Below are positions 2,810 to 38,302 of a stretch of DNA of 52,439 nt, in pieces; position 1 is the first letter of the stretch, and each line of letters begins with the position of its first letter. The stretch is from a virus: positions 1-52,439 of IMG/VR virus record IMGVR_UViG_3300042691_025813; one strand, written 5' to 3'. A program made the position numbers and the translations under genes. The notes under the pieces are model-generated. The model did not search any database, was not told the origin of the DNA, and saw nothing but the letters and a program-made list of their open reading frames with translations.

Positions 2810-5800
2810 TCAAAGATTCGACCTCACATTGAAAGTAACGACGATGTACAACAAGGGGAAGACGGGCTGATAGTAAGCCTCGACCTCGGCCACGGTCGGA
2901 TCATCGTCCGAGACTTTCGCGGAAACTCCGGTGAAGCCAGCGATAATCTGGCCCGCTTGGAGCTTCTGAAGAACGCCCGAGAGAGTATTCTCGATTTGGC
3001 CCGTGATGCCCGGAAGGAACTTCGTCCCGATAAACTTGTCCAGGGCATTGCGGGCTTGCTTCTGAACCTCGTCGGCGATTTGGGTGACCGTCGGAAGCTT
3101 CGTGAGGATATTCGTCATATCCGTCGTGAGCCCTTGACGTACCCGAATCTGGTTCTGCTGTTGGAACAGGACCGTCACGCCGCGAGTAGCAACTTGATTC
3201 TGTTCCACGGGGTCCAGAACCCGAGCAATCCCGTCAAACCCAAATACCTGAGCATTAGTCCAAGGAGTCGCTACATCGATGCTCGGAGAAGCGCGGGTTC
3301 CGGCGAAAGCCGCCGCCATGTAAGTGCCATCGACGAGATAAGACTCAATCGTTCCGACCGCGTTGGTAAGGCTTAGCGTGTAGATGTCGGGGTACAACAT
3401 CCGAAGACGGGTACGGCCGATTGCTTGGGCCTCGTTTCCAACGTCCCTCGGTTCAGTCCCCGCAGAAACTCCGACGATCCCCGTTCTTTCCGCACGGTAA
3501 CGGATTGAAGACTGGATATCGCAGTGTTTCGCAAGGTACTGGAACAGGGAGAGAGAATCACCCCTTAGAGGAATGATGTAATCCGGGAAAGCGCCTCCAG
3601 GAAGAGGACCCTCAATATCGTCGATCGCCGCTTCATAAGCAGGAACCGAAGCTTGATCGTCCACCCCGTCCCCGTTGACATCAGTGTCTTTCGGGACCTG
3701 CTTGATCGCAACAAGGACGGCCCCGTTGATGATCGAGAGGTAAGAAGCCAGCGTTACCGGATTCTCAGGGGAGTTCGCCCCGTAGACGGCTTGGATCGTC
3801 GACATCTTTGTGTAAAGGGCGGGAGAGAAGTCTTGCTTCCGGTAGTCATAGGAGACGTAATACAAATCCCCTACGTTGGGTTCTGCTCCGGAGGGAGCGA
3901 AAGTAGAAACAATCGCGGTATCCCCGGTTGAAATCCCGAGAGTGTTGGAAACCAGAAGCTGAACACCCGGAAGAGTATTCACCGGAATGTTAGCATTCGT
4001 GGTTGCGTTCTTTCTCACTTTGAGAGTAAAGAACTGACCCGCCGGGTAAGAAGCCCCTCCAGTTCTGGGTAGAACCGTGAAAGTAAGTCCGGTCACCAAG
4101 TCACGGTAAGTCTGACCGACGTTTCCGTCTTGGCCGACCGCCGCGTTAAGAACGGACGTATTCGCGGTCCCGGAACCGTTGACCGGATCCGAAGAAGTCA
4201 CAAAGAAGCCTTCGATTGCATCTTCTCCGACTGCGCCGTCTCCGTCTTGAACTCCAAGTCCCCCGCCCGGAAGAAGCGCATTGTCAGAAGCCGCATCTTC
4301 GAAAGCGATCGAAGAAAGGGTTCCAGCACCCGCATTACCAAGGCTTTGAACAAAGAGGTAATCGGCCCCCGCAGAATCTTGGAGAGTCTTTGCGAGGGCG
4401 TCCAAAGAGAAGCTGGAATTGTTCATCAAGCCGGAAACAAGAACTTCCGGTTGAAGCAGAGTACGGAAAGCCGTTGATCCTTCTGAGAAGCCGAGAGGCC
4501 CGTTCGCGGATCCGTTTCCGATAACGATGCTGGAAGAAACTTCTACCGAAGATCCACGGAAACGGATTCCGGCTCCTTCTTGCAAGAGCAATCTTGCAGA
4601 AAGAACCGCCGCCGCCGAAGCCCCAAGACCCGCAGAAGCCATCGCTGCTGCGATTTGGTTCAGGATGGTATTTGCAGTTCCCGCCGGACCGAGAGGTACG
4701 TCCGCAGAACCCGCTGAAGGAATCACGGCCCCGGAAGAGTCTCTAAACTCAACCGTGACGGGAACCCCCTCAAAGGTAAACTTGAAGACGTTGTTCTGAG
4801 CAGTTGTTCCGCCCGCCGCAAAGAAAGTCACAATCGGTTGGCCTAAACCAGACTGGCCCCCAGAAAGACCGACTTCGCCGAAGAGAGTCGGCTCCATCAT
4901 AGTGGCGCGGATACCGGCCAAGCCTTCTGCATTCGGGGTGAGGCCGGAAAGGGAAGCCCCAGTTCCACCAAGAATCCTTAGCTGGCATTGGTCCAGGGTG
5001 CTTTGACCGTCCAGAGAACCCCCTTGACCCGGAAGGATCCGGTTTCTGAGGATCAAACGGTCATAAGCATGAACCCCGGTAGTCGGCCCGGTGAAAGTAA
5101 AGACCGAAGCGATCTTGTGGTTTACAATCTTGACTTGGCTTCCAAGGGCAGAACCTAAGTCAAGTCCGGCGAGGATCGCGAAGTTGTTTGCCGGAAGAAC
5201 GCCAGTGCTTACAAACTCAAGTACCGCTTCCTGATCGTCTTGGGGGTGACCCGCAAGCAAGAATACCAAACGACCCGAAGAATCCGCTTCTACGAAGATT
5301 TCAACTTCATCGTTTGTTCCAAACGCCGCAAGTACCGCAGTGTCAACAGCAGTCTGAACTGCCGCTGCCAAAGCGGAAACCGAAGTGTAGTTGGAAGCCG
5401 CGATAGAAGCGGTGATGGTCGTCGGGGCGGTGGAGTTACCCGAATAAACCATTCTCAGAGTTGCAAACCCTGATGAAAGATCGGTCGGGGCCAAGAACCG
5501 AGTCTTGGTCTTGATGTAAGGAAGGGCGTCCGGGTTGTAGGCGACGTAAGAATCTCCGATCGCAGGAACCCCGGAGAAGTTAGAATCCACCGTCGCGGTT
5601 CGGGTAGAACCCACGTAGCCGGAGATCACTCTCTTGTCACCTGCGGCTGCGCCGGAGATCACTTTGACGATCCAATTCTCGTAGTGACCCGAATTCTCGG
5701 AAGCCGTGATCGGGAACACGATCGTTGAGAGCGTTCCGAAAGTCGCGTCCGCGAACTCTCCGAAAGAAGCCCGATTGATTGCGTCCGCGAAATCTTGGAC

Positions 5801-8903: not shown

Positions 8904-11144
8904 TTATCCGGGTTCCGGAAGACCTTCTGGTTGGTCTACCCCCATTTCGTCCCAATGAACTTCAAGGGAGCCTTTGTCCCAAGAAGCATAATCGTGGCTT
9001 ACCATCCAAGCCAACCTCAGAGCAACGGTGACCGGAAGAATAGCATTCAAGAAATATTTTGAAGGAAGACCCGGAAACAAGAGGGACAGAATCAGACCGA
9101 TCCCTGCTTCTGGGAGACTCTTTAGAAGTTCCACAAACGTGTAGCCGCCGGAGAAGCCCCGAAGAATATCCGGGACGTCCCAAGAAATCTCGGTGACGTT
9201 CAACCAAATCACTGCGAAAAGAGCAGCCGAAACCGCTTTCCCTGCAAGCAGAGAAATAGGATGCTTTCTCACATAATCATCCAGAACTTCAGCGATACCA
9301 GTTACAGACTTCGCGACGGATTTTAGTGCGTTTGAAATCTTAGGGGGGAGGTAATCCCCCAACTTTAGAAGATAAGCGTTGAGGGCCGGCATCTTCCCTC
9401 TCGCCTCAAAGTAGATCTTGAAGAATGGAACTTTGTCTACGAGGTAATCCCCTGCTTTTTGTAAAGCATCTTTCCCTTTTTTGACGAAGTTCTGAATCTT
9501 GCTTGGGAGTTCTTTGAGCGCGCTGAGAAGAGAATCCGCTCTTACGCCGATCATATCCTTGAAATCCTCCCAGGCTTCTTTTTGGGAAGAGAAAACCTCC
9601 CAGAGGGCTTTGATCTTTTTCGCAACGTCAAAGGCTTGTTTTTGGGTGGAGATCTTAGACCCGTGGGAATCCAAGAATGAAAGAAGGACTTCTGAAGTGA
9701 GCTCTTTGTTGGACTTGGAAGCTGTTCGGCCTGCAAGGATTTTCCGAACTTCGTTCCTCAGAGTATGCTGGGAAGCAACACGTTTTTCAAAGGACCTCTG
9801 AAGCCTCTGTTCGACTTTCTTCCAATCCACGAGGTTATCGAACAGGGCTTCAAAATGCTTCGCTCGATCGTTCTGGTAATCCAAATAATAAGCGTGCTCC
9901 CACGCATCAATCGGTAGGAGAACTTCTCCTTCCCAAAGAACTCCATTTTCGTGGTTCATCACAGTGACGATCCTTAGACCGTCCGGGGTTGATACCAAAA
10001 CGCCCCAACCAGATCCCCGGACTTTAACGGCGCTCTCTTTCATCTGAGATCGGAAATCTTCCCAGGACCCGAAATCTTCTTCAATGGTTTTCTTGAGGTC
10101 CTGAGAAGGTTCTTCATACTCCGGGGTCAAAGACTCCCAATACAGAGTATGCAAGAAATGACCTCCCGCATTGAATTGCATCGCCGCGTTTAGGGCGGGG
10201 ATCCTCTCAAAGTCTTTTTCCTTTCGGGCTTTGGCGATTGCTTTCTCCGCTTCGTTGAGCCCGTCGACATAAGACTTGTGGTGCTTATCGTGATGGAACC
10301 TTAGAGTCTCCTCGGAGATATAAGGCTCAAGGGCGTCATAAGCATAAGGAAGTTTCGGAAGAGAGTGTTTTCCAACAGATGCAGTCCTAAGAATCTCCCC
10401 GGAAGAAACTTCAGGGCCAGTCACGAATTCTAAAATCTCTTGGAGCTCCTCGAGGGTTGGCTCCCGGTTGATTTCTGGGTGATCCCGATAAAGATTTCGG
10501 ACGTCATCCAAAGCCACTTGCATTACATCCGAAGGTTCATCCCCGATCAACCCGCCCCCTTCAGATTTCCACCAACCGGCTTTCTTCTTTCTCCAACCCC
10601 CGCCCTCATCTTTGTAGATCTTCAGGGCGTGCCCCACCGCATAAGCAGAAGGCCACTTTTTGTACCTGGACTTCGCTATATCTTTGGATTCTTCCCACAA
10701 GTCGGGGTCGGTCGGCTCGTTTTCCCCCGCAAAGATATCTCTGGACTCTTTGAAGGTTTTGGTATGCGTCGTGGATTTACCCTCACCCCTATCTTTCTTC
10801 TCCGCCCGCATCTTCTCTTTTGCGAGTTCTGCCCTTTCTTTCTTTGGGGTGTCCCAAGCTTTCTGCCTGGGCATGCATTTCAGAGGGTCTTTTCCACCCC
10901 CGGTTTCTTTCTTCCAGTTTGGATCTTCTGAAATCCCGCACGGCCCGATAATATCCCCCGGATAAACAGTCTCTTCTTTGACTGTGCCGTCCGCGAGTTC
11001 TTTCTTGATCTTTTTCTTTACGGGGGATATTGCGACCCAATCACCCCAAGTCGCGTCGCCCTTGCTCCCGCCGTGGCCGCTAAACCATTCGTCCAACCCG
11101 CCGTGGCCCACATCTTTCTTTGCCCTATTGCGCGCTGTTCTCAT
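8904..11144 (-). CDS. Fusion protein: small phage domain + Fe/Mn superoxide dismutase + membrane segments
   Basis: A 746-aa protein starting at the ATG at 11144 with AGGGGG upstream; TTG 11201 and ATG 11159 are weaker starts. Residues 15-180 hold GGLDEWFSG, WGDWVAISP, GDIIGPCG, CMPRQKAW and KKWPSAYAVGHALKIYK, resembling a small domain of giant-virus and phage proteins (I believe DUF5872). Residues about 260-451 are a complete Fe/Mn superoxide dismutase domain: LPKLPYAYDALEPYIS, FHHDKHHKSYVDGLN, GGHFLHTLYWESL, GSGWGVLV, IDAWEHAYYLDYQNDR. All four metal ligands are present (H284, H332, D413, H417), as is active-site Y292. Residues 470-625 are helical, and hydrophobic segments lie near 632-649, 671-693 and 698-714. 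SOD dismutates superoxide to O2 and H2O2. The fusion and membrane tail are unusual, and the product may be virion- or membrane-attached. Confidence 0.88.
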   Translation of the reverse strand: MRTARNRAKKDVGHGGLDEWFSGHGGSKGDATWGDWVAISPVKKKIKKELADGTVKEETVYPGDIIGPCGISEDPNWKKETGGGKDPLKCMPRQKAWDTPKKERAELAKEKMRAEKKDRGEGKSTTHTKTFKESRDIFAGENEPTDPDLWEESKDIAKSRYKKWPSAYAVGHALKIYKDEGGGWRKKKAGWWKSEGGGLIGDEPSDVMQVALDDVRNLYRDHPEINREPTLEELQEILEFVTGPEVSSGEILRTASVGKHSLPKLPYAYDALEPYISEETLRFHHDKHHKSYVDGLNEAEKAIAKARKEKDFERIPALNAAMQFNAGGHFLHTLYWESLTPEYEEPSQDLKKTIEEDFGSWEDFRSQMKESAVKVRGSGWGVLVSTPDGLRIVTVMNHENGVLWEGEVLLPIDAWEHAYYLDYQNDRAKHFEALFDNLVDWKKVEQRLQRSFEKRVASQHTLRNEVRKILAGRTASKSNKELTSEVLLSFLDSHGSKISTQKQAFDVAKKIKALWEVFSSQKEAWEDFKDMIGVRADSLLSALKELPSKIQNFVKKGKDALQKAGDYLVDKVPFFKIYFEARGKMPALNAYLLKLGDYLPPKISNALKSVAKSVTGIAEVLDDYVRKHPISLLAGKAVSAALFAVIWLNVTEISWDVPDILRGFSGGYTFVELLKSLPEAGIGLILSLLFPGLPSKYFLNAILPVTVALRLAWMVSHDYASWDKGSLEVHWDEMGVDQPEGLPEPG

Positions 11145-11219
11145 TTGTCGCCCCCTCATTCCCACGGCATTCCGGATAAGAGGGTCCGCCAAGATAAGCA
11201 AAACAACGCCAAAGTCTGA

Positions 11220-15161: not shown

Positions 15162-15821
15162 TTATCGAGAAGAGACTTGCCTCAACCAAGACTTCATTCT
15201 GGAGTTGTTGATCTCCAGGGCCGAGAGCTTCGGCATCTTCTCTTCGTTCGCAGGAACGGCTTTTTCAGCTTTGGGGTCTACGGAATCTACCACGAGGCGA
15301 TTTAGCGTAGACACCGCTTTCCCCCCAGGACCCTTTTTGATCTCTTCCGGGGTCGGGGGGGCTTGCTTGGCGTCCGAGACTGTTTTTCTCTTTGAGAGGT
15401 CCAAGTTATCTTTGGATGCTGCTTCTGCGGCTATTTCTGGGGAGTTTGTAATCGCCCCGGTCTCCGCAAACTCGCGAACCTCACTGAACTGGGGGGCTTT
15501 GTAGAAAGCCCCTTCTGCGGAAGGAGCAACTTTCGGGGGGGCTTTCTGGGCTGTTCTGATCCCCTGTGGGTAAAACAACTCCAGAACAACCCACTCGTCC
15601 ATGTAATCTATCTCGGCACTTCCAGTAGGGAATTTCTGGAGGTAGAGAACCTTCAAGCGTTTTGCTTCTTGAAGGTCTTCCTTCCCGATTTTCTGTCTGC
15701 CGACATCTCCGTGTTCCCTCGTGATAAGAGAAACGGATTCCGAGTTGATAGAATCAACTCGAAACCAAGTATTTTCACTACGGAGGAAAGCAGAGATTTC
15801 GGTCGGAATACGCATGGTCAT
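15162..15821 (-). CDS. Hypothetical protein with disordered linker
   Basis: A 219-aa protein whose ATG at 15821 overlaps the stop of the Dps-like gene (ATGA). Residues 1-90 look like a compact mixed domain (ISAFLRSENTWFRVDSINSE, DEWVVLELFYPQG). The remainder is Ala/Pro/Lys/Glu-rich and probably disordered, ending in a short basic helix (EINNSRMKSWLRQVSSR). No family is recognised. Tight coupling to the Dps-like gene suggests co-production with it. Confidence 0.7.
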   Translation of the reverse strand: MTMRIPTEISAFLRSENTWFRVDSINSESVSLITREHGDVGRQKIGKEDLQEAKRLKVLYLQKFPTGSAEIDYMDEWVVLELFYPQGIRTAQKAPPKVAPSAEGAFYKAPQFSEVREFAETGAITNSPEIAAEAASKDNLDLSKRKTVSDAKQAPPTPEEIKKGPGGKAVSTLNRLVVDSVDPKAEKAVPANEEKMPKLSALEINNSRMKSWLRQVSSR

Positions 15822-16456
15822 GCAAGAACCTGCTGAAGAAGATAGATGTTGGTTTCATGCGCGCTCGCAGTCGCCATGATCCAATCATCAAACCCAAGGG
15901 TCAGGCCGCCGCAGGCTTTCAGCCGGTTGTAGCAATTCTTCAGGAGTTTCTGAAGATCTTGCTCTGCATAGAGTGCCCTCTGATGGGGGTCGGCTACTTT
16001 GCACCAATGCGAGCAGTACCCTTGAATCAGGGAAATCTGATTCGGGAGGAAAACGCTATCCCCGCCCGTGTACCCCACAAGCTTCTCGGCTGCGGAATCA
16101 ATCTCTTCTTCTACGCTCTCGTACAGGCGCTGGAAGAGAAGATGATTCCCGTAATAGTTCGGGCCTTTGGCTTGCCAGTGCAGGGTCTGGTAAAGCATGT
16201 ACTGCGCGCGAAGGGCGGCAAGGATATGCGACAAGCAGTTACGGACTTCGTCCAAGTTTTGGGTTTCTACATAAGCATTCTTTTTGTTCTTCAGCTCTTC
16301 CCGAACTTTGAGTACGGACTCCGGAGGATTCTCGTTCATTTCCGCAAACTCAGGATTATCCTGAAAGAACTTCTTCTTTTCCGCCTGGGACATAGGTCCG
16401 GCTTTGTGCTTTGCTGAGAGGCTGCGGGCAATTTCTGATGGGAGAAGAAAAGACAT
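15818..16456 (-). CDS. Dps-like ferritin-fold protein
   Basis: A 212-aa protein with a charged ~65-aa N-terminal extension, then a Dps/ferritin four-helix domain at about 68-205: CLSHILAALRAQYMLYQTLH, HWQAKGPNYYGNHLLFQRLY, SVEEEIDSAAEKLVGY. The Dps inter-subunit ferroxidase spacing is kept (H93-x11-H105-x14-D120-x3-E124, matching Listeria Dps H31, H43, D58, E62); the fifth ligand D47 is Q109. Dps proteins oxidise Fe(II) with H2O2 and store iron, protecting DNA from Fenton chemistry. A Cys/His patch (GYCSHWCKV) follows. It lies 4.7 kb upstream, in transcription direction, of the SOD fusion, and the two activities are complementary because SOD produces H2O2. Confidence 0.82.
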   Translation of the reverse strand: MSFLLPSEIARSLSAKHKAGPMSQAEKKKFFQDNPEFAEMNENPPESVLKVREELKNKKNAYVETQNLDEVRNCLSHILAALRAQYMLYQTLHWQAKGPNYYGNHLLFQRLYESVEEEIDSAAEKLVGYTGGDSVFLPNQISLIQGYCSHWCKVADPHQRALYAEQDLQKLLKNCYNRLKACGGLTLGFDDWIMATASAHETNIYLLQQVLA

Positions 16457-16743: not shown

Positions 16744-17124
16744 CTATGTGACGCCGGAAGTTTCACAGCCTTTTGAAACAAGCCACTCATCGAGCTTCTG
16801 AAGAGATTCTCTGTCCCTGGATTTGAAAGTAACTTTATCCGGCTCAACCTTTACGCCGAGGTCCTTAATCGGGGGAACTTTATCCAGACGGGATTTCCCA
16901 TCCCGAAAGCTTTTGAGCAGGGCCGGGAGATTCTTGATCTGTTCCGACCCTATGTAAACCACAAGTCTATGTTCGGGTAAGGCTTCTCGCTCAAGCCAAG
17001 AACGAGCGACCTTTTTCGCCATCGAGACTTTCTTGTTGGGGGGCTCAGAAGTCAAAATTTCCTCGAACACCGGGAAAGATAGCGAACCTAACGGGTTAGC
17101 CAACTTGGTAGATAATCTCTTCAT
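16744..17124 (-). CDS. Hypothetical protein
   Basis: A 126-aa protein whose ATG at 17124 lies inside the 3' end of the sigma-like gene (29-nt overlap). No strong Shine-Dalgarno is seen, and an internal ATG at 17022 (MAKKVARSWLEREALP) is an alternative start. The central MAKKVARSWLERE segment is a basic amphipathic helix of a kind often found at domain edges in large-phage proteins. The rest (VVYIGSEQIKNLPALLKSF, DKVTFKSRDRESLQKLDEWL) is mixed alpha/beta. No family is recognised. Confidence 0.65.
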   Translation of the reverse strand: MKRLSTKLANPLGSLSFPVFEEILTSEPPNKKVSMAKKVARSWLEREALPEHRLVVYIGSEQIKNLPALLKSFRDGKSRLDKVPPIKDLGVKVEPDKVTFKSRDRESLQKLDEWLVSKGCETSGVT

Positions 17125-17701
17125 TCCAAGCCGCTCGGTTGCTGTGCTTCAACACATTGAAGTTGTCTCGAACTTTTTCAAAGACCCCAAAATACTTTGA
17201 GCACAAAGAGTCTTTCTCTATCAGGGGGAGAGTCCGGAAGAATCTATGCCTTACGAAACCTTGTGTGACTCCAATTTCCCGAGCGACATCGCTCTGACAA
17301 GTAGTGCGGATCATTCCCATCATGATTTGCACGTCGACAGGATCTTGCAAAGAAATCTTGAGATCTCTTTCGATATCCGCTATCGAGTAAGGCGACAAAT
17401 CCAACAAGAACTTGATTCTCGCGGTAGCTCTTCTCAAACGGTAACAAACCGTCGGCTGACTAACATTGAATATCTCAGCGATAGATGTCTGGCGAACCTT
17501 ACGGAAAAAGTAAAGGTCGATGAAGTCGGCTTCTCTTGGAGGAATCAAGTCCAAAATTTCCCGCACCCTCTCCAAATCGTCAAAGCTCTCTTCTTGGAGA
17601 TCGTCCCATACCGAGGGTTGCTCCGAGATAGAGTCCTCATTAGAGAAGATCTTCTCCATATCCATCGGGTCGTAGAGTAAGAAGCTCCCCCAGTTACTCA
17701 T
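17096..17701 (-). CDS. Sigma factor region 4-like double helix-turn-helix protein
   Basis: A 201-aa protein starting at the ATG at 17701, with GGAGG 8 nt upstream inside the end of the NusG-like gene. Residues 46-100 resemble sigma-70 region 4: ILDLIPPREADFIDLYFF, TSIAEIFNVSQPTVCYRLRR, ATARIKFLL. A second HTH lies at about 130-160 (TTCQSDVAREIGVTQGFVRH). There is no clear region 2, so it may be an anti-sigma-like or accessory specificity factor rather than a complete sigma. Coupling to the NusG-like gene and DnaX suggests a regulatory module controlling phage transcription during replication. Confidence 0.75.
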   Translation of the reverse strand: MSNWGSFLLYDPMDMEKIFSNEDSISEQPSVWDDLQEESFDDLERVREILDLIPPREADFIDLYFFRKVRQTSIAEIFNVSQPTVCYRLRRATARIKFLLDLSPYSIADIERDLKISLQDPVDVQIMMGMIRTTCQSDVAREIGVTQGFVRHRFFRTLPLIEKDSLCSKYFGVFEKVRDNFNVLKHSNRAAWNEEIIYQVG

Positions 17702-18254
17702 CTTGAAAGTCCTCCCCCAAAGGGCTGAGTACAAATTTTGGGAAAACCCGGATGGACTCCAAGGATCTCAATGAGATCCTAACGCAAACAGAATCCTCAT
17801 CCACGAGGAGAGCGACTCCTTCGACTCCCTCATAAGAACCTTTCAAGATTAGAACCCGGTCACCCTCGGCGATAGAACTCGAAGCCATTTGGTTGAGTTT
17901 GGCTTTGAGTTCTTCTAATTGCTTATTTGGAACCGTATGCAGAGAGAAGGTGTATCCGGACTTAGAATGCATAACGGATTTTAGATAAGGGGAATCTCGA
18001 ACTGCCAGAACATATTCTCGAGAATCCAAAGTATATTCTACAAAGCAGTACCCCTCCATGACGTTCATGAGGGTTTTCCTGCCGTCACTAACACAAACCC
18101 TGTATGGGATAAAGACCTGCTCGGGCTTGATTCCGAACAAGTCTAAAATATGCTTCTCGAGTTCCCCAGATACCGCTGTTTTCTCACCCAAATAAGTCAA
18201 CTCAAAGACCAACCAGGTCTTTTCGTCCCTCTCGTCTTTATTGGGAGCCCCCAC
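17694..18254 (-). CDS. NusG-like transcription elongation factor
   Basis: A 186-aa protein with NusG architecture. An NGN-like domain spans about 12-115: KTWLVFELTYLGEKTA, LFGIKPEQVFIPYRV, MNVMEGYCFVEYTL, YVLAVRDSPYLKSVM. A KOW domain follows at about 129-178: AEGDRVLILKGSYEGVEGVA, DSVCVRISLRS, IRVFPKFVLSPL. The domain order, the xGYxFVE strand and the G-D-x-V-x-x-x-x-G-x-(Y/F)-x-G KOW signature support the call. NusG/RfaH/Spt5 proteins clamp RNA polymerase and control pausing and termination; a phage paralogue would be expected to act as a processive antiterminator. It overlaps dnaX by 17 nt at its 5' end and the sigma-like gene by 8 nt at its 3' end. Confidence 0.82.
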   Translation of the reverse strand: MGAPNKDERDEKTWLVFELTYLGEKTAVSGELEKHILDLFGIKPEQVFIPYRVCVSDGRKTLMNVMEGYCFVEYTLDSREYVLAVRDSPYLKSVMHSKSGYTFSLHTVPNKQLEELKAKLNQMASSSIAEGDRVLILKGSYEGVEGVALLVDEDSVCVRISLRSLESIRVFPKFVLSPLGEDFQDE

Positions 18255-31071: not shown

Positions 31072-31758
31072 TCAAAGGATAGTGTAAACTTTCTTGAAGA
31101 TCTCTCGAGTCTGGATGATGTCCTGACGGAGATGTTCCCCTACGCCTGCGACGTCCCGCCGCAAATAAGCGTCTGCGACTTCTGGACCCATAACCCCCGT
31201 TTGCCTTTGGATACCGAGGACCTGGCAAACAGTGTCCATCTTTCCAACCCCCTTCAGCCCCCACTCATAAGCAGACTTGTCCGCCCCGGTGCGGGGAAAG
31301 ACTTTCATCAAGTCAATAACCTTTTGGTCCCATGGCTTGTCAGAAACTTTCCCAAAGCACTTAGCGAGGGCGGGCATGTTATGATGAAGCGCCCGGACTT
31401 GCAAGAAAGGGATATCAAACCCGGCTACGTTGTAGCCCACAAGCCAAGGAGTAGAGTAACTCTTCAGATAAGAAGTTAGACTTTGAAGAACTTCTTTCTC
31501 TGCAGCCGGAGAACCGTCCCCGGAGAAGATAATGGGTTCTTCGTTCCTAAAAGCGACCCCAGCCATCCAAACCCGGCCCATAGAAGGAAGCATGGCGGTG
31601 TTTTTCTGAATCGTACGAAACCTCTCTGCGAAATCCTCGGTAGATTCTCCGGGGTTCTGGGTGATTCCCTCGGAGAGGTTCTTCCAAATGGGATTGTCGT
31701 CTTCTGCGGGGAGAGTCTCGATATCCAAGAAGATAAAGTTGCTTGAAGAAGTATGCAT
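31072..31758 (-). CDS. DEDD 3'-5' exonuclease, PolB-exonuclease-like
   Basis: A 228-aa protein starting MHTSSSNFIFLDIETLP at the ATG at 31758, with GGAG 9 nt upstream. DEDD motifs: FLDIETLP (D12, E14), LVGYNVAGFDIPFLQVRAL (Exo II Asp), and a C-terminal acidic helix AYLRRDVAGVGEHLRQDIIQ with the final Asp. The layout matches the predicted 3'-5' exonuclease family related to the proofreading domain of family B polymerases. It is free-standing, so it may proofread in trans or trim recombination intermediates. It is adjacent to the RecD2-like helicase and the putative mediator. Confidence 0.82.
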   Translation of the reverse strand: MHTSSSNFIFLDIETLPAEDDNPIWKNLSEGITQNPGESTEDFAERFRTIQKNTAMLPSMGRVWMAGVAFRNEEPIIFSGDGSPAAEKEVLQSLTSYLKSYSTPWLVGYNVAGFDIPFLQVRALHHNMPALAKCFGKVSDKPWDQKVIDLMKVFPRTGADKSAYEWGLKGVGKMDTVCQVLGIQRQTGVMGPEVADAYLRRDVAGVGEHLRQDIIQTREIFKKVYTIL

Positions 31759-31806
31759 AGGGATTATCTCCAAAGAAACATTACGGTTCTTTGGTCTTCA
31801 AGGCCC

Positions 31807-34137
31807 CTAAGTCTTCCCGGCAAGAGACTTGATACGCAGACTCAAGAAAGAATTTCTTGAGCCTGCGTGGTTGTTCTCTACTGCTTTTTCGATCGCTCCA
31901 GTTACCCCGACAAGGAACACTTTCTTCTTGGCTCTCGTGATCGCTGTATAGAAAAGGTTTCTTTGGAGTTGGCGGCCGAAAGAGTTTAGGACGGGAAGAA
32001 TGATGACATCGTATTCTTGACCCTGAGACTTGTGTACGGTTTGCGCGTAAGCGAGCCTGAGAATCTTGGAGACTTCTTTGAAGGGGTATCGAACCAACCG
32101 GGGAGGAGAGTCAGAGCCTTCGAATATCTTGATTTCGATTTCTTTGGCTTTGTTGTCAATACGGGAGATCTTCCCGACGTCCCCGTTGTACACCCCCATA
32201 CCATAATCATTCTTCACGATCATGATACGGTCCCCTTCGCGAATGACCGTATTTCCCATCCTGTATTCTGTAACTCCGGACAGGGCCGGATTTAGTGCGA
32301 TCCTAAGCCTCTGGTTTAGCGAAGTAACCCCCGACTCACCGGCGTGCCTGGGAGAAAGAACTTGAAAGATAGACTTCTTCTCGTAGAGTTTCTCGGCAAC
32401 GCGGGTAATCACCTCGGCGGCTTCTTCTTCGGTATCTGCCCCCAATAAGATGAAATCTTTCCCGTCAATCTTGGGCGTTCTTCCAAGATGCACGTCATGC
32501 GCGGCCAGAACAATCCCCGAAGTTTCCTCTTGGCGGAAAATCTGGTCCAAATGGCTATGCGGGAAAATTCCTGCTTGAACCAGGTCCCGAAGAACATCCC
32601 CAGAACCGACCGAGGGAAGCTGATAAGGATCCCCTACAAAAACAATCCTACAAGTCTCAGAAGTAGAATTGAGGATCCGATAAAGCATATGAAGGTCAAG
32701 CATCGAAGACTCGTCTACGATGATGACTTCTGCCGGGTGAGGTCTTCCGGGGCCGTAAGACCAATCTGACCCGTGGTCTGCTTCTGACCGAGAAGATTTC
32801 TTGTTCGGGTCCTTGACGACTCCAAGGTAAGAAGATTCTTCTGCTTCCCCTGAAGAACCCTTCGCTCCAAAAGCCCGGTGAACCGTGTGGGATTCTTTCC
32901 CCGTCACAACAGACATCCTCTTTGCGGCGATCCCTGTTGGAGCCGTCAAGAGGATATTCAGACCCATGTCTTGAAGAACTGATACGACTGACATTAGCGT
33001 CGTCGTCTTTCCGGTTCCAGGAAGACCCGTCAAAAGGGATACCGGCGAGATAAGGGCTTGAACTGCTGCGGCTTGTTGTTGTTGGGTTAGGGAAATCTTC
33101 TTTCCCCGCGCCCACACTTGAAGGGCTTCTTGCGCTAACTCTTCTAAGGTGGCCCCCTTGTCAGATAATTCTCCAACGGAGGATCCAACTTTGGAGAGAG
33201 ACTTCCTAAGTAGAACTTCGTCTACTTTCTGGGTAGATCTCTTGTAAAGAATCTCTGCGCATTGCTTTTCGGCTTCAAAGTGCCACTTGTCATACACCGC
33301 CACGGTTCCGGGGCAGGCTTCTCGGTCTACTATGAAAATTCCCTTTTTGCGAAGGTCTGCGATGGCTTGCGCGACCGCTTGGGAAGAAGGTTCCGGGTTT
33401 GGGATCAAAGAAGAAACCCCAGAAACAATCTGAGAAGTCGTCGTAAAGACGTGCCCCTCAAACAGATTCTCTTGGGTCACAGAAAGCACTGCACCCCGAA
33501 CTCTTCCAGGATTATCTAAAGAAACACCAAGTTTTCTCGCGACCTCGTCCGCTTCTCGGAAAGAAATCCCGGGAACTTGTACGAGAACCCAAGGGTCCTC
33601 AGTAACGAGGTTCTGAAAGTCTTCCCCCAGGAGGGTCCAAACCCGCCCGATCACATTTTGGGGGATACCTGCTTCCGCCATAAAGTCGGCGGCATCCATG
33701 AGTGCCCTCAAAGACCTCCACTTCAGAAGAATATCTTCCAAAGCCGTAGCGTCTACTGCGAGGCCTTCAAAGGTTCCTTTATCCAGGGCCCCCTGAAGAG
33801 GGACCCCTCGAGAAACCCCCCAGATCTTTAGAGAAGATCTAACCGTAGGGCCGACTCCGTAAGACCCCAAAGCCGCAAGAACTTTGTCGTCAGTCCAAGT
33901 TGTAATCGAAACAGGAGATCTAACAACAGAAAGTTGCTTCCCAAATTTTGGATCTTCTTTCCAAGCACCCTCGAACGAGATCCAAGTCCCGACTTGAACA
34001 TCCTGCGCCGGAAAGTTTCCTTTGACAGAAACCGGAAAGTTTGTCAGGGCGTCGTCAAGCAACACCTTAAGAATCTTGAAATCACCGTTTTCATAAACGA
34101 CGCTGGATACAGTCCCAGAGAACGCCGGATTCGTCAT
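31807..34137 (-). CDS. RecD2-like DNA helicase
   Basis: A 776-aa protein whose ATG overlaps the preceding stop (ATGA). The N-terminal ~340 residues hold a small OB-like domain (GTVSSVVYENGDFKILKVLL) and helix-hairpin-helix repeats (LAALGSYGVGPTVRSSLKIW, LVQVPGISFREADEVARKLG), as in RecD2. The superfamily 1B core follows: Walker A LLTGLPGTGKTTTL (371-378), LTAPTGIAAKRM, VIIVDESSMLD, VFVGDPYQLPSVGSGDVLRD, LDQIFRQEETSG, a SH3-like barrel (NDYGMGVYNGDVGKI), and motifs V/VI (YAQTVHKSQGQEYD, NLFYTAITRAKKKVFLVG). RecD2 unwinds DNA 5' to 3'. It heads the recombination gene run. Confidence 0.92.
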   Translation of the reverse strand: MTNPAFSGTVSSVVYENGDFKILKVLLDDALTNFPVSVKGNFPAQDVQVGTWISFEGAWKEDPKFGKQLSVVRSPVSITTWTDDKVLAALGSYGVGPTVRSSLKIWGVSRGVPLQGALDKGTFEGLAVDATALEDILLKWRSLRALMDAADFMAEAGIPQNVIGRVWTLLGEDFQNLVTEDPWVLVQVPGISFREADEVARKLGVSLDNPGRVRGAVLSVTQENLFEGHVFTTTSQIVSGVSSLIPNPEPSSQAVAQAIADLRKKGIFIVDREACPGTVAVYDKWHFEAEKQCAEILYKRSTQKVDEVLLRKSLSKVGSSVGELSDKGATLEELAQEALQVWARGKKISLTQQQQAAAVQALISPVSLLTGLPGTGKTTTLMSVVSVLQDMGLNILLTAPTGIAAKRMSVVTGKESHTVHRAFGAKGSSGEAEESSYLGVVKDPNKKSSRSEADHGSDWSYGPGRPHPAEVIIVDESSMLDLHMLYRILNSTSETCRIVFVGDPYQLPSVGSGDVLRDLVQAGIFPHSHLDQIFRQEETSGIVLAAHDVHLGRTPKIDGKDFILLGADTEEEAAEVITRVAEKLYEKKSIFQVLSPRHAGESGVTSLNQRLRIALNPALSGVTEYRMGNTVIREGDRIMIVKNDYGMGVYNGDVGKISRIDNKAKEIEIKIFEGSDSPPRLVRYPFKEVSKILRLAYAQTVHKSQGQEYDVIILPVLNSFGRQLQRNLFYTAITRAKKKVFLVGVTGAIEKAVENNHAGSRNSFLSLRIKSLAGKT

Positions 34138-34614: not shown

Positions 34615-34618
34615 GTTT

Positions 34619-34643
34619 GATCTACCCCCCTTCGGGGTAGATC
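34619..34643 (-). terminator. Hairpin after the PAS/holin-like gene
   Basis: GATCTACCCC and GGGGTAGATC form a perfect 10-bp stem with a 5-nt loop, 1 nt after the TGA at 34645. No U-tract follows on either strand, so termination may be weak or the hairpin may protect a 3' end. It separates the lysis cassette from the replication run. Confidence 0.55.
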
Positions 34644-34644
34644 C

Positions 34645-35391
34645 TCAGTCTTGGATGCCGCTTCGGTTTCTTGGGTCAAACATGCTTGCCATGGCGCTTC
34701 CAAGAATCCCCGTCATTACAAGTAGGATGTCCTTTACCATCGTGAGTCCTTCCGGGCTTCCCCCCGTAGCCCATTGGGCTACGATAAGAGCCCCCATCAG
34801 AACAGCCAGCAAAAACGTCCCGATAAAAACTTGTCGAAGAAGATTCATCTGCCCCGACAATCTTTGCTGCTGAAGGAGTCTTTCTTCAGCTCCTTGCCGG
34901 GCTTTGTCCGCTTGGACTTTTAGGTTCTCGGCTTCTACACGTGCCTTCTCGGTCTCTTGCATAGCCCGGTCAGCCTCATCCAAAGCGGACTGAGTTTCCC
35001 TTTGGGCGGCAAGAAGAGCCCCGACTTCCCTGGCCCTTTCTTCTTCTCGAGCACGTGCTTCAGAGACGTTAGAAGTTCGGTCATAGAAAACAACAAGAAT
35101 ATACTTCTCGTCTTCGTCTTGGATGTCCGTTAGGTTTGCGGCCAGAGGGATCTTGACCCCGTCAAAGCGAACACCTTCGGAGTTCTGCCACCTGTCCTTT
35201 GATCCGGTTTCTATTTCTGGTGCAAGAGTTCTTAGGGGCGAACCAACCATCGGACTAACTTTTGGAAACCCAAACAACCCCGCACAAGGAAGATTCGCAT
35301 CCAGGACTTGGGCGTCTTCATCAAAGGAACAAACAGCCACCGGGATCTGCAATCTGGAAATCGTAAACCTGATCGAAGAAAGAGCGTCCAT
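34645..35391 (-). CDS. PAS-domain, coiled-coil, two-helix membrane protein; possible sensory holin
   Basis: A 248-aa protein starting MDALSSIRFTISRLQIP at the ATG at 35391, with GAGGA upstream. Residues 8-107 match a PAS fold: LQIPVAVCSFDEDAQVLDAN, AGLFGFPKVSPMVGSPLRTL, then VRFDGVKIPLAANLTDIQDE and YILVVFYDRTSNVSEAR, the usual PAS end leading into a linker helix. Residues 108-180 are a charged coiled coil (SALDEADRAMQETEKARVEA). Two hydrophobic helices follow at 188-207 (QVFIGTFLLAVLMGALIVAQ) and 219-236 (VKDILLVMTGILGSAMAS), then a short polar tail. The C-terminal pair resembles two-helix phage holins. It lies in the same cassette as the M15 endolysin. PAS domains sense redox, light, gas or ligands, so lysis could be gated by a signal. 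Domain call good; holin role inferred. Confidence 0.72.
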   Translation of the reverse strand: MDALSSIRFTISRLQIPVAVCSFDEDAQVLDANLPCAGLFGFPKVSPMVGSPLRTLAPEIETGSKDRWQNSEGVRFDGVKIPLAANLTDIQDEDEKYILVVFYDRTSNVSEARAREEERAREVGALLAAQRETQSALDEADRAMQETEKARVEAENLKVQADKARQGAEERLLQQQRLSGQMNLLRQVFIGTFLLAVLMGALIVAQWATGGSPEGLTMVKDILLVMTGILGSAMASMFDPRNRSGIQD

Positions 35392-35446
35392 ACCAGAAGT
35401 CCTCGCTTTCGAAAAGGGGGTCCGAGAGCCTTGAGAACTTGATCCG

Positions 35447-35701
35447 TTAGTCCGGATCCAAGATAAAATTCCAGCTCTTTCTTGTGAGTGCGCCAGATTT
35501 AGACTTGCGGATATCGGCTTCGGAAGACTTAACAAGAATCTTCAAGAAGTCCTCGTCGGCGTTTAGTTCGGCAAGGGCTTCTTGGACTTCATCCGACATC
35601 AAATCCCGATGCGCGAGAATCCTGCAAATAGATACGATCCCCCGAACCAACCCTATTGTGACTTCCCCGGAATAGTCGTTTTCTTTTGTGGTTTCCGACA
35701 T
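35447..35701 (-). CDS. Hypothetical small protein of the lysis cassette
   Basis: An 84-aa soluble protein (MSETTKENDYSGEVTIGLVR) with AGAGGA 8 nt before the ATG. It is helical (GIVSICRILAHRDLMSDEVQ, DFLKILVKSSEADIRKSKSG) with no signal peptide or transmembrane segment. It is encoded between the endolysin and the PAS membrane protein and may regulate one of them. No family is recognised. Confidence 0.65.
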   Translation of the reverse strand: MSETTKENDYSGEVTIGLVRGIVSICRILAHRDLMSDEVQEALAELNADEDFLKILVKSSEADIRKSKSGALTRKSWNFILDPD

Positions 35702-35758
35702 AACAGAGTCCTCTCTAAGAAGGAGCCCCTTTTGGAGGCCCCTGTCTTGTAGGAAAGA

Positions 35759-36562
35759 TTACTTTGCCGGAAGTGCAAGAATCTTCGGGTAAACAGAAAC
35801 TTCTTTGGCCGAAATGATTCGGCCAGCTTCTGAAGCATTCACCCCAAGGGCCGTAGCGAGAGCCCCGGAGGTTCTTGGGCCGATCACACCGTCGATCTTT
35901 CCGATATCAAATCCGGCCCGCTGAAGTAGTGCTTGAACAGTGTGCGCGAAAGTTTGGCAGTCTCCGCTGTGCCCTACCAGGATTGCCCCGCACTTGGCGG
36001 TTTCCTCATAACCAAGGCGCTTATGTACCCCAGAAAGTTCACCGTAGAAATCAAAGTGCCAAGATTCGCTTGCACTTTCGTCCGGGCTGCGGATCACGGG
36101 GGACCAACCGCAAGAAGTTGCGATGTCCCAGAACTTGTCAAGCTGCTTGTCCGAAGAAACACCGGGAAACTTCAAAGCCCCAACGTGAATATCGATCGCA
36201 CGGCCGGCGTTATGGAAAGACCTTCCAGGAAGAGCCACGAAAGCGGCTTTCATGGTCTTGGAGCTAAAGACCGGAGAAGAAGGAGAAGGCTTTCCGGCTC
36301 GAACCCAAGTGTCATATTTCTCGCGGGCTTTTTGTTGGACTTTGACGTCCCTGTGAAGCTCAGTCACCCTGAAATCTCCACCCGCCGCTTGGACTGCTTT
36401 GTGGAGATTCAAAAGGGCTTGGGCGGCTTCCGGAACAGCGATGCCCGCTTTGCCAAGTCGAGTCAAAGGAATCAACTCCGAACGAGGACCTCCGGTTCTA
36501 CCGGAACGGTCATAAGACGAAGCGATAACAGGATCGACTGCAACCAAAGAAATAACGGACAC
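35759..36562 (-). CDS. Endolysin: M15 peptidase with peptidoglycan-binding domain
   Basis: A 267-aa protein starting at a GTG at 36562 with GGAGG upstream. Residues ~45-185 form a VanY/M15 D,D-peptidase-type domain: VQAAGGDFRVTELHRDVKVQ, zinc motif GRSFHNAGRAIDIHV (H117, D124), and ESWHFDFYG (E166, H169), the classic HxxGxAxD ... ExWH set. Residues ~196-240 are a PG_binding_1-like repeat (FAHTVQALLQRAGFDIGKID, GVIGPRTSGALATALGV). It cleaves peptide cross-links of the host wall. There is no signal peptide, so release would depend on a holin; the PAS/two-helix membrane protein downstream is the candidate. Confidence 0.9.
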   Translation of the reverse strand: MSVISLVAVDPVIASSYDRSGRTGGPRSELIPLTRLGKAGIAVPEAAQALLNLHKAVQAAGGDFRVTELHRDVKVQQKAREKYDTWVRAGKPSPSSPVFSSKTMKAAFVALPGRSFHNAGRAIDIHVGALKFPGVSSDKQLDKFWDIATSCGWSPVIRSPDESASESWHFDFYGELSGVHKRLGYEETAKCGAILVGHSGDCQTFAHTVQALLQRAGFDIGKIDGVIGPRTSGALATALGVNASEAGRIISAKEVSVYPKILALPAK

Positions 36563-36583: not shown

Positions 36584-37945
36584 TTACCCTTTGAGCATAC
36601 CGAGGATCGTGGATCTTTCCTTCGAGCCTTTCGGAAGACTCGAAGCGAGCCGAACAAGAACTGCCCGGTTCTCGGAAGCAAACCGAGCCCAAGAAGGAAC
36701 TTTCTTCATGCTCCGCTCAAGCCTGGCGTTTTCTTCTTGCTGGACGGCCCTCCAACGAGGGTCATCCTTGGGGATCTCTTTCCAAGTCTTTGGTTGAGAC
36801 TGAGTCGGAGACTCAAACCCGCCGCCGCCGTAAGTCTTGGGGCGACGGCTGATTTCTTGACGCATTACTTGAAGGATGTCCCTGCTCTTGACGAGTTCTT
36901 TGACGGCTTCGTCGGACTTAATCGCCGAGAACATCGCCGGAAGAACAGCGTCTCGGAAAACCTTGGACATCACGACGTCCATGGACTTCCCGGTGTATTC
37001 TTGACCGGTCCTGGAAGCAACAAGCTTCGCGAGCTCTCTGCCTTGGACGCCGATCTTCAAACCGCCGCCATCCGAAGGGGAAGAAGGAGTCATCGTCAAG
37101 ATCGAAGGATTGTCCCTGACGATCTCCCAAACCATTTTCTGGTTCGGGGTTCTCAGACGAGAAAGAACCTGCTCACTAATGATGTCCAAAGTTGCATCGT
37201 AGCGAAGAACCGCTGAAGCCAGGTCTTCTGAGAAAACAGATTCATCCTGGGTCAGCATCTCAAGGATAGCTGCCGGGGAGTCCACCAAACCGACTTCCGA
37301 CCCGAAAGCCGGCTGGTCCAAAGAAACCGCTCCGATTTCTTCTTTTGAGGTTCCTCTGACGAGGTCTTTGGTCCGGTTTGCGACTTCTTTCTTGGCGACG
37401 GACTTCACGCCCTCCAAGGTGATCCCCGGAGTGGCTTTCTGGCCGAGCCAGTACATCATCCCCTTGCCCTGGCCATACTTCATCCAATTGCCCGTAACAG
37501 GAGAAATCCCGAAAGCAAGGGAGTTCACAACTGCATGGGCCGAAATCCCCCGGATAGACCCCGAAGGGCGCATCTGGTTGCTTGCGGCGTAAAGAAGACC
37601 GTTCCAAATCTGTTGGTCGTTCGCGGAAACAAACTTCAAAGCCTCTGCGGGAGACATCTGAAGATCCGTAACAAGCTTGCGGGCGATCGGGTTGGTCTCG
37701 TAGTCCCCGCTGGTGATCGCTTTGCGGGCTTCTCCAAGATGCAGCGCCGGCTTCCTTGTTAGGGTGTTGGGTTCATACCCCATAGCACCCTCAATATAAG
37801 AAAGTCTAAGAAACTGATCTTCTTGGGCTTGGGCCATCTTCGCCCAAGCCGTGAGTACCCGGAAAAGTGGGTTTGACTCAGATACGGAAGAAGCCAACCT
37901 GATCAGGCCGGCGTTGGACTTTCTTGCGGCGACAAGGCTTCGCAT
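36584..37945 (-). CDS. Virion-type protein with RLASS tag at both ends
   Basis: A 453-aa protein starting MRSLVAARKSNAGLIRLASS at the ATG at 37945, with GAGGGAG upstream. The N-terminal NAGLIRLASSV is a shortened version of the helical tag. The C-terminus ends in a full copy (LVRLASSLPKGSKERSTIL plus GMLKG). The middle is helical and mixed (TRKPALHLGEARKAITSGDY, ISAHAVVNSLAFGISPVTGN, SVFSEDLASAVLRYDATLDI) and includes a long unit about DNA- or protein-binding size, but no family is recognised. It is the first minus gene after the divergent region and is followed by the endolysin. Tags at the ends suggest targeting or packaging. Confidence 0.75.
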   Translation of the reverse strand: MRSLVAARKSNAGLIRLASSVSESNPLFRVLTAWAKMAQAQEDQFLRLSYIEGAMGYEPNTLTRKPALHLGEARKAITSGDYETNPIARKLVTDLQMSPAEALKFVSANDQQIWNGLLYAASNQMRPSGSIRGISAHAVVNSLAFGISPVTGNWMKYGQGKGMMYWLGQKATPGITLEGVKSVAKKEVANRTKDLVRGTSKEEIGAVSLDQPAFGSEVGLVDSPAAILEMLTQDESVFSEDLASAVLRYDATLDIISEQVLSRLRTPNQKMVWEIVRDNPSILTMTPSSPSDGGGLKIGVQGRELAKLVASRTGQEYTGKSMDVVMSKVFRDAVLPAMFSAIKSDEAVKELVKSRDILQVMRQEISRRPKTYGGGGFESPTQSQPKTWKEIPKDDPRWRAVQQEENARLERSMKKVPSWARFASENRAVLVRLASSLPKGSKERSTILGMLKG

Positions 37946-38302
37946 AAGATCTCCCTCGGGATAGAACTTACACGAGGATGGAAGATAACCGAAGTATTGG
38001 AAGAGAGTGAGGTCCAACAGGTTTCCCTCCGAGAACTTTCGCCGTAATGGTCAGGGGCCAAGGCGAAGGAAGAGAAAACTTCCTTGGAAAACTGGAACCT
38101 CCTCGGAGAGGCCTCAAAACCTCTCAGAAACATTCAAAATACAGTGAAAAACGCATCGTTTTGACTCGTCTTCGCAAGAGACGGGTTACCCTACGTTAGT
38201 CCTTGGCTTGACTCCGCTCTTTAGAGCTTCGTCCCCCGCCTTTGGACTTCAACAAACCATTCTCGCCGAACTCTCTTGAGAGTCAGGCAAACGAGAGCAA
38301 AA
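37946..38302. promoter_or_regulatory. Divergent intergenic region with hairpins
   Basis: This gap of about 357 nt separates minus-strand genes (up to 37945) from plus-strand genes (from 38303), so promoters for both directions are expected here. I see several small inverted repeats: GAGAGG/CCTCTC near 38115-38135, CGTCT/AGACG near 38165-38181, GCTCT/AGAGC near 38217-38228, ACTCTC/GAGAGT near 38270-38283. TTGACT occurs near 38160, but no convincing -10 box is paired with it. No credible gene is seen inside. Confidence 0.5.

Follow-up and report, generated by a model that had tools for sequence, protein, structure and literature searches.

The time at which a phage lyses its host is normally set by the assembly of the holin itself and, in T4, also by separate antiholins. 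The holin gp11 of mycobacteriophage D29 has two transmembrane (TM) segments in an N-in/C-in arrangement, and its coiled coil affects oligomerisation and lysis timing (reviewed in PMC9671378). XhlA and SPP1 gp24.1 are one-TM components that work with a separate two-TM holin, XhlB or gp26 (PMC6316719). In T4 holin T, an extra-membrane domain receives regulatory input that delays lysis, the antiholins being RI and RIII (PMC11413866). The vibriophage VP882 protein VqmA is a soluble, DNA-binding receptor that acts through transcription of qtip and influences lysis (PMC8284805).

The DNA analysed here, referred to as the window, is a stretch of 52,439 nt (positions 1 to 52,439 of IMG/VR record IMGVR_UViG_3300042691_025813). 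An original prediction placed in it a gene for a PAS domain, a coiled coil and two membrane helices, in one cassette with an M15 endolysin, and read the product as a sensory holin. An open reading frame coding for a single protein with a PAS domain, a coiled coil and a membrane segment was found at exactly that position (34645-35391) and is called P0001. The features of the locus were as follows.

34645..35391, minus strand: P0001, PAS / coiled-coil / predicted two-TM membrane protein, 248 aa (profile searches, AlphaFold2, hydropathy)
35071..35349, minus strand: very probable PAS domain, P0001 residues 15-107 (four Pfam PAS models, AlphaFold2 element order, Foldseek)
34768..35070, minus strand: continuous helix, P0001 residues 108-208, comprising the coiled coil (about 109-186) and, joined to it without a break, TM1 (about 187-207) (AlphaFold2, heptad test, hydropathy)
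34681..34746, minus strand: second, marginal membrane helix (TM2), P0001 residues 216-237 (AlphaFold2 helix 213-237, hydropathy)
34618..34643, minus strand: RNA hairpin, 10 bp, perfect and GC-rich, with no U-run, immediately 3' of the P0001 stop codon (folding energy)
35447..35701, minus strand: soluble orphan of 84 aa between the endolysin and P0001
35759..36562, minus strand: M15 (VanY-type) endolysin with a C-terminal peptidoglycan-binding repeat, GTG start (Pfam VanY)
36584..38017, minus strand: upstream flank, conserved phage protein of 477 aa (35% identical homolog in jumbo relative G016)
34134..about 34598, minus strand: downstream flank, conserved small gene, start codon approximate (homologs beside RecD in G016, G008 and G015)
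31807..34137, minus strand: RecD2-like helicase
31072..31773, minus strand: exonuclease

Along the minus strand the genes are ordered 477-aa protein, M15 endolysin, 84-aa orphan, P0001, small conserved gene, RecD2-like helicase and exonuclease. P0001 starts with an ATG at 35391, 5' of which lies the ribosome site GAGGACT; a site of this type is common to P0001 and the 84-aa gene upstream of it, and GGAGGT precedes the GTG of the endolysin. The hairpin after the P0001 stop codon has a dG of -23.4 kcal/mol (z -3.4 versus shuffles). P0001 and the endolysin thus share a cassette, as predicted, but are not immediate neighbours, the 84-aa gene lying between them. This orphan gave no confident Pfam or PHROG match and no relative in viral contigs. 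No homologs of P0001 were found when the whole protein and its parts were searched against phages, plasmids, viral contigs, genome contigs and related jumbo-phage records, and no relatives occurred among the 6,140 ORFs of the retrieved loci. A candidate relative in L023 (E 0.01-0.1) and weak PAS-like matches in plasmids were at chance level and were discarded.

Residues 1-118 of P0001 matched four PAS models in Pfam (PAS_8, E 0.0011; PAS_9, E 0.0036; PAS, E 0.0036; PAS_4, E 0.009) and no non-PAS family up to E = 10. PAS_9 was aligned nearly end to end (residues 18-106 on profile positions 2-102). Ten decoys, consisting of the reversed P0001 sequence and nine composition-preserving shuffles, gave no Pfam match up to E = 10, and in a search of the whole window PAS_9 matched at the P0001 locus only (E 3.5e-4). 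Since all four matches fall below the curated gathering cut-offs, residues 15-107 are best described as a divergent member of the PAS family, an assignment that we regard as very probably correct. Full-length, single-sequence AlphaFold2 prediction was uninformative for residues 1-109. Prediction of residues 1-118 together with one phage PAS relative (from G034; 17% identity, with equal motif spacing) gave a low-confidence model (pLDDT 49, pTM 0.43) whose elements follow PAS order: helix 3-13, strands 19-24 and 29-32, helices 34-39 and 53-61, strands 74-81, 83-92 and 95-104, then a helix. Comparison of this model with the PDB by Foldseek gave 688 matches at E up to 10 (best E 4.7e-4), and the best 50 of the 688 were all PAS/LOV proteins or PAS-containing assemblies. 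The VIA-align matches were mostly PAS, with Z at most 6.4.

Another small alpha/beta fold for residues 15-107 would agree with the sub-threshold profile scores, with the low confidence of the AlphaFold2 models and with the VIA-align comparison, in which roadblock/profilin-like domains scored comparably and every Z was below 8. It is nevertheless highly improbable in view of the four PAS models matched to the exclusion of other families, the blank decoys, the almost full-length PAS_9 alignment and the uniform composition of the best 50 Foldseek matches. The segment also ends as PAS domains usually do where they join their linker, in a DxT-type motif that leads into a helix, which speaks against a non-PAS fold. 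The PAS fold expected for residues 8-107 is in this way very probable from the Pfam matches, the decoys, and the low-confidence model and its Foldseek matches together.

The remainder of P0001 was predicted by AlphaFold2 as an unbroken helix from residue 108 to residue 208 (pLDDT mostly > 85, and > 90 for much of the helix). The a/d hydrophobic periodicity of residues 109-186 exceeded that of 99.7% of shuffles (p = 0.003), with a core made up mostly of Ala. Hydropathy (Kyte-Doolittle) is strong for TM1, at 2.35 over residues 187-206. It is marginal for TM2, which peaks at 1.56 (216-234) and has a K-D pair near its start; membrane insertion of TM2 is putative. The expected combination of coiled coil and two membrane helices thus held for the continuous helix, the heptad pattern and TM1, but only marginally for TM2. 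Basic residues precede TM1 (R177, R186) and follow TM2 (R241, R243); from these, and from the lack of a signal peptide, an N-in/C-in topology would be the simplest.

The endolysin matched VanY with an E of 6.6e-9, above the Pfam cut-off. Its M15 motifs, SxHxxGxAxD and ExWH, are intact (S115-H117-G120-A122-D124 and E166-W168-H169), and H117, D124, E166 and H169 are invariant across its relatives. No hydrophobic segment or signal peptide was found at its N-terminus, so that the original description of an M15 endolysin lacking its own export signal was confirmed. With its catalytic residues intact and no export signal, the enzyme depends on a membrane partner. Apart from P0001, none of the plausible coding ORFs beside it has a TM segment and no credible membrane gene lies in its vicinity, and no rival holin candidate was seen next to the endolysin. 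The reading that we tentatively prefer, at somewhat less than an even chance, is that P0001 is a membrane protein of the lysis module, either a holin or an obligate holin partner, class-II-like and with an added cytoplasmic PAS head. The word holin itself is a guess from position and topology, and its chances are also slightly short of even. P0001 matched no holin family in Pfam, NCBIfam or PHROG, and its 185-aa cytoplasmic head, far larger than in ordinary holins, speaks against a holin. The sensory-holin reading of the original prediction accordingly keeps its architecture beside a signal-less endolysin, but is backed neither by a holin-family match nor by the proposed signal.

Relatives of the endolysin were found in viral contigs (n=36). 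The nearest, L002 and L106 (72-76% identical), are followed by soluble genes, and neither PAS nor a convincing membrane gene was found among their neighbours. These closest relatives, without P0001, are in keeping with an alternative that we consider unlikely though a serious contender, namely that P0001 has no part in lysis and is merely a neighbour of the endolysin; it would be a membrane adaptor or sensor, tail-anchored and with a PAS head, that might serve to take over the host, to dock replication or assembly at the membrane, or to control superinfection. The 84-aa orphan that separates the two genes and the DNA-metabolism genes downstream (RecD2-like helicase, exonuclease) point the same way. 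Against such a role stand the endolysin's need for a membrane partner, with no other nearby, and the TM proteins, some of them coiled-coil, that directly adjoin several of the 36 relatives. Among these neighbours, the protein in L060 has a coiled coil and a TM segment (PHROG holin, E 0.0026) and that in L059 matched a PHROG Rz-like spanin (E 0.0019). Uncharacterised, holin-like proteins with three TM segments lie upstream of related M15 endolysins (L053:93-530, L059:4732-5670 and L005:1531-2280), the one in L053 having no PHROG match. The C-terminus of P0001 could not be matched to the holin-like genes beside related endolysins; a visual resemblance to the 3-TM proteins (a KD where the last helix begins) gave no hhalign alignment and was not taken as evidence. 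A search for another endolysin in the jumbo relatives found no VanY domain; PG_binding_1 proteins occur there.

The arrangement of the locus in G016 also bears on a non-lysis role. In that jumbo relative the two flanks have homologs (L037:3543-4667 and 3043-3522) that lie only 20 bp from each other, with no cassette between them, and the endolysin, the 84-aa gene and P0001 therefore form a discrete block that is gained or lost together. Three genes in one block between flanks that touch in G016 argue against such a role and in favour of P0001 as a lysis-module protein. The genes upstream of RecD in G008, G012 and G015 were considered as lysis genes and rejected, being unlike lysis proteins by eye.

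The window also carries genes for a sliding clamp, a clamp loader, a UvsX-like recombinase and ribonucleotide reductase, besides the helicase and exonuclease. Records with the 1812-aa protein of the window reach 288-297 kb; the window is therefore probably a fragment amounting to under a fifth of a large phage genome, about 80% of which is unseen and may include the gene for the true holin. A further reading, which we judge rather improbable, makes P0001 an accessory or antiholin-like partner that binds and times a holin encoded outside the window, rather than the hole-maker, in the manner of PBSX XhlA or of RI and RIII acting on T4 holin T. Such a role would suit the large unseen part of the genome, the marginal TM2 and the coiled coil followed by a C-terminal membrane segment, which recalls the layout of XhlA and SPP1 gp24.1 (PMC6316719), and T4 is an established case of regulation through separate antiholins (PMC11413866). 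It is disfavoured by the lack of any match of P0001 to XhlA (PF10779) up to E = 10, by the helix that is predicted for TM2, and by the cassette, in which no second holin is visible. A lysis-module protein, as holin or as obligate partner, remains our preferred reading.

One of the two nearest endolysin relatives (L106, 76% identical) lies on a contig in a metagenome-assembled genome labelled Actinomycetota (WB5_3A_088). Contig C225 of the same bin (G048; L109, L110) encodes a protein 56-61% identical to the 1812-aa protein, so that phage contigs of this group have been binned there. A 5.4-kb contig from another dataset (L006) was 100% identical to residues 617-1812 of the 1812-aa protein, and the phage population thus recurs. 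The window also encodes a sigma-70 region-4 protein, possibly a late sigma factor (17096-17734, minus strand). Several unrelated proteins of the jumbo-phage group carry, terminally or internally, a short motif like LTSSDRSxLIRLASSLPKGSxERRxIL, which has the look of a mobile tag for targeting or processing; it occurs in the window at 1511-1897 (N-terminus) and 36584-38017 (C-terminus), and elsewhere in L002, L037:11571-11885, L038:7186-8622 and L042:6218-8551.

A redox or gas signal had been proposed for the PAS domain, with the superoxide dismutase (SOD)/Dps cluster as support. P0001 contains no histidine, and hence no axial histidine of the kind used by haem PAS domains of the FixL/DOS type, which are thereby excluded. 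Of its two cysteines, C21 is in strand A and C36 in helix C, and the LOV motif GxNCRFLQ is absent. Judging from the residues present, neither haem bound by histidine nor a LOV flavin is a likely cofactor. The F helix usually lines the cofactor pocket of PAS domains. In the P0001 model only 12 residues separate the predicted E helix (53-61) from the G strand (74), and the alignment to PAS_9 pairs 89 residues with 101 profile positions, a shortfall of 12, from which the F-helix region is shortened as modelled. The proposed signal thus found no support in the domain. Nor was it helped by the oxidative-stress genes of the window, which lie outside the cassette, 18-26 kb away:

8904..11201, minus strand: protein of 765 aa with an Fe/Mn superoxide dismutase domain
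15818..16456, minus strand: ferritin-like protein

A redox link between P0001 and these genes was rejected, given their distance and the missing haem and LOV residues. The domain may respond to other ligands, to a redox change at C21 and C36 or to a partner protein, or may have no sensory role; it could be a ligand binder or just a clamp for dimerisation and timing. The SOD domain occupies residues 278-466, in the middle of the 765-aa protein, and in G016 a separate ORF (L037:12003-12959) is homologous to its C-terminal part (461-756).

PAS genes were also sought in other phages. G034, whose endolysin belongs to the same family, has a PAS-only gene (L095:1396-1761) directly followed by a gene for a coiled coil with a C-terminal TM segment (L095:1776-2192). 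This pair hints that the parts fused in P0001 belong together, as a lead and not a proof, being one case met after searching for PAS domains. It lies 43 kb from the endolysin of that phage, so that such a set can exist without linkage to lysis, as a non-lysis role for P0001 would have it. No further relatives were found, and PAS_9 detected no PAS genes in related jumbo phages; a sub-threshold match in G012 (E 0.0056), in a 148-aa frame that overlaps a larger ORF, was set aside as spurious. A phage PAS-PAS protein whose C-terminal half resembles GGDEF was seen in G047 (L093:982-2382) and also in G046; the G047 protein, encoded among phage genes, has a GGEEF motif by eye and is a possible diguanylate cyclase.

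If P0001 acts in lysis, the PAS heads would dimerise and the state of the dimer would be transmitted along the continuous helix (108-208) into TM1, and this would set the time at which the TM hairpins gather to open the membrane or depolarise it; the signal-less M15 endolysin would then escape and cut the peptidoglycan. Of this scheme, computation supports the anatomy (the PAS-type head, the continuous helix, TM1, the endolysin and the discrete block of three genes), while TM2 insertion, topology, dimerisation, hole formation and regulation by the PAS head are inferred. A more specific version, which we hold to be distinctly unlikely, makes P0001 a holin with a built-in cytoplasmic sensor that sets lysis time post-translationally and without a separate antiholin, ligand or partner binding at the PAS head being relayed through the 100-residue helix to the membrane hairpin. 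Were this so, a PAS head on a holin would let the chemistry of the infected cell, or a phage partner protein, set the time of lysis, and the gene would by itself make a simple system in which to test how a phage senses the moment for lysis. So far this unusual architecture belongs to a single orphan gene. Judged by title, the literature searched held nothing on PAS-holin fusions, and a search for PAS domains in jumbo phages gave nothing related; the domain layout of P0001 was not described there, in line with the original remark that sensory holins of this design were not known.

Among described systems, the EAG/hERG channels share with P0001 an N-terminal cytoplasmic PAS domain that controls a membrane part in the same polypeptide, and their PAS structures were among the VIA-align matches; they are eukaryotic voltage-gated K+ channels, comparable in domain layout only. 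VqmA of VP882 is likewise a phage-encoded PAS protein, and PDB 7dwm was among the VIA-align matches (Z 5.3, tied with many), but VqmA is soluble and DNA-binding, whereas P0001 is membrane-anchored and has no DNA-binding domain. PBSX XhlA, which has coiled-coil character, and SPP1 gp24.1 resemble P0001 in their C-terminal membrane segment and their place in a lysis cassette; they differ in their size of about 90 aa, in having one TM segment and no PAS domain, and in needing a second, two-TM holin. T4 holin T takes regulatory input via an extra-membrane domain, as is proposed for P0001; it has one TM segment and a periplasmic domain, its input comes from separate antiholins and its fold is unrelated. 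The class II holin gp11 of D29, with two TM segments, a cytoplasmic coiled coil and a gene that adjoins the endolysin, has the layout predicted for P0001, but its coiled coil is C-terminal, it has no globular sensor domain, and P0001 matches no holin family. Timing through the coiled coil of D29 gp11 and regulation through the extra-membrane domain of T4 holin T together make a mechanism running from PAS head to membrane plausible for P0001 by analogy.
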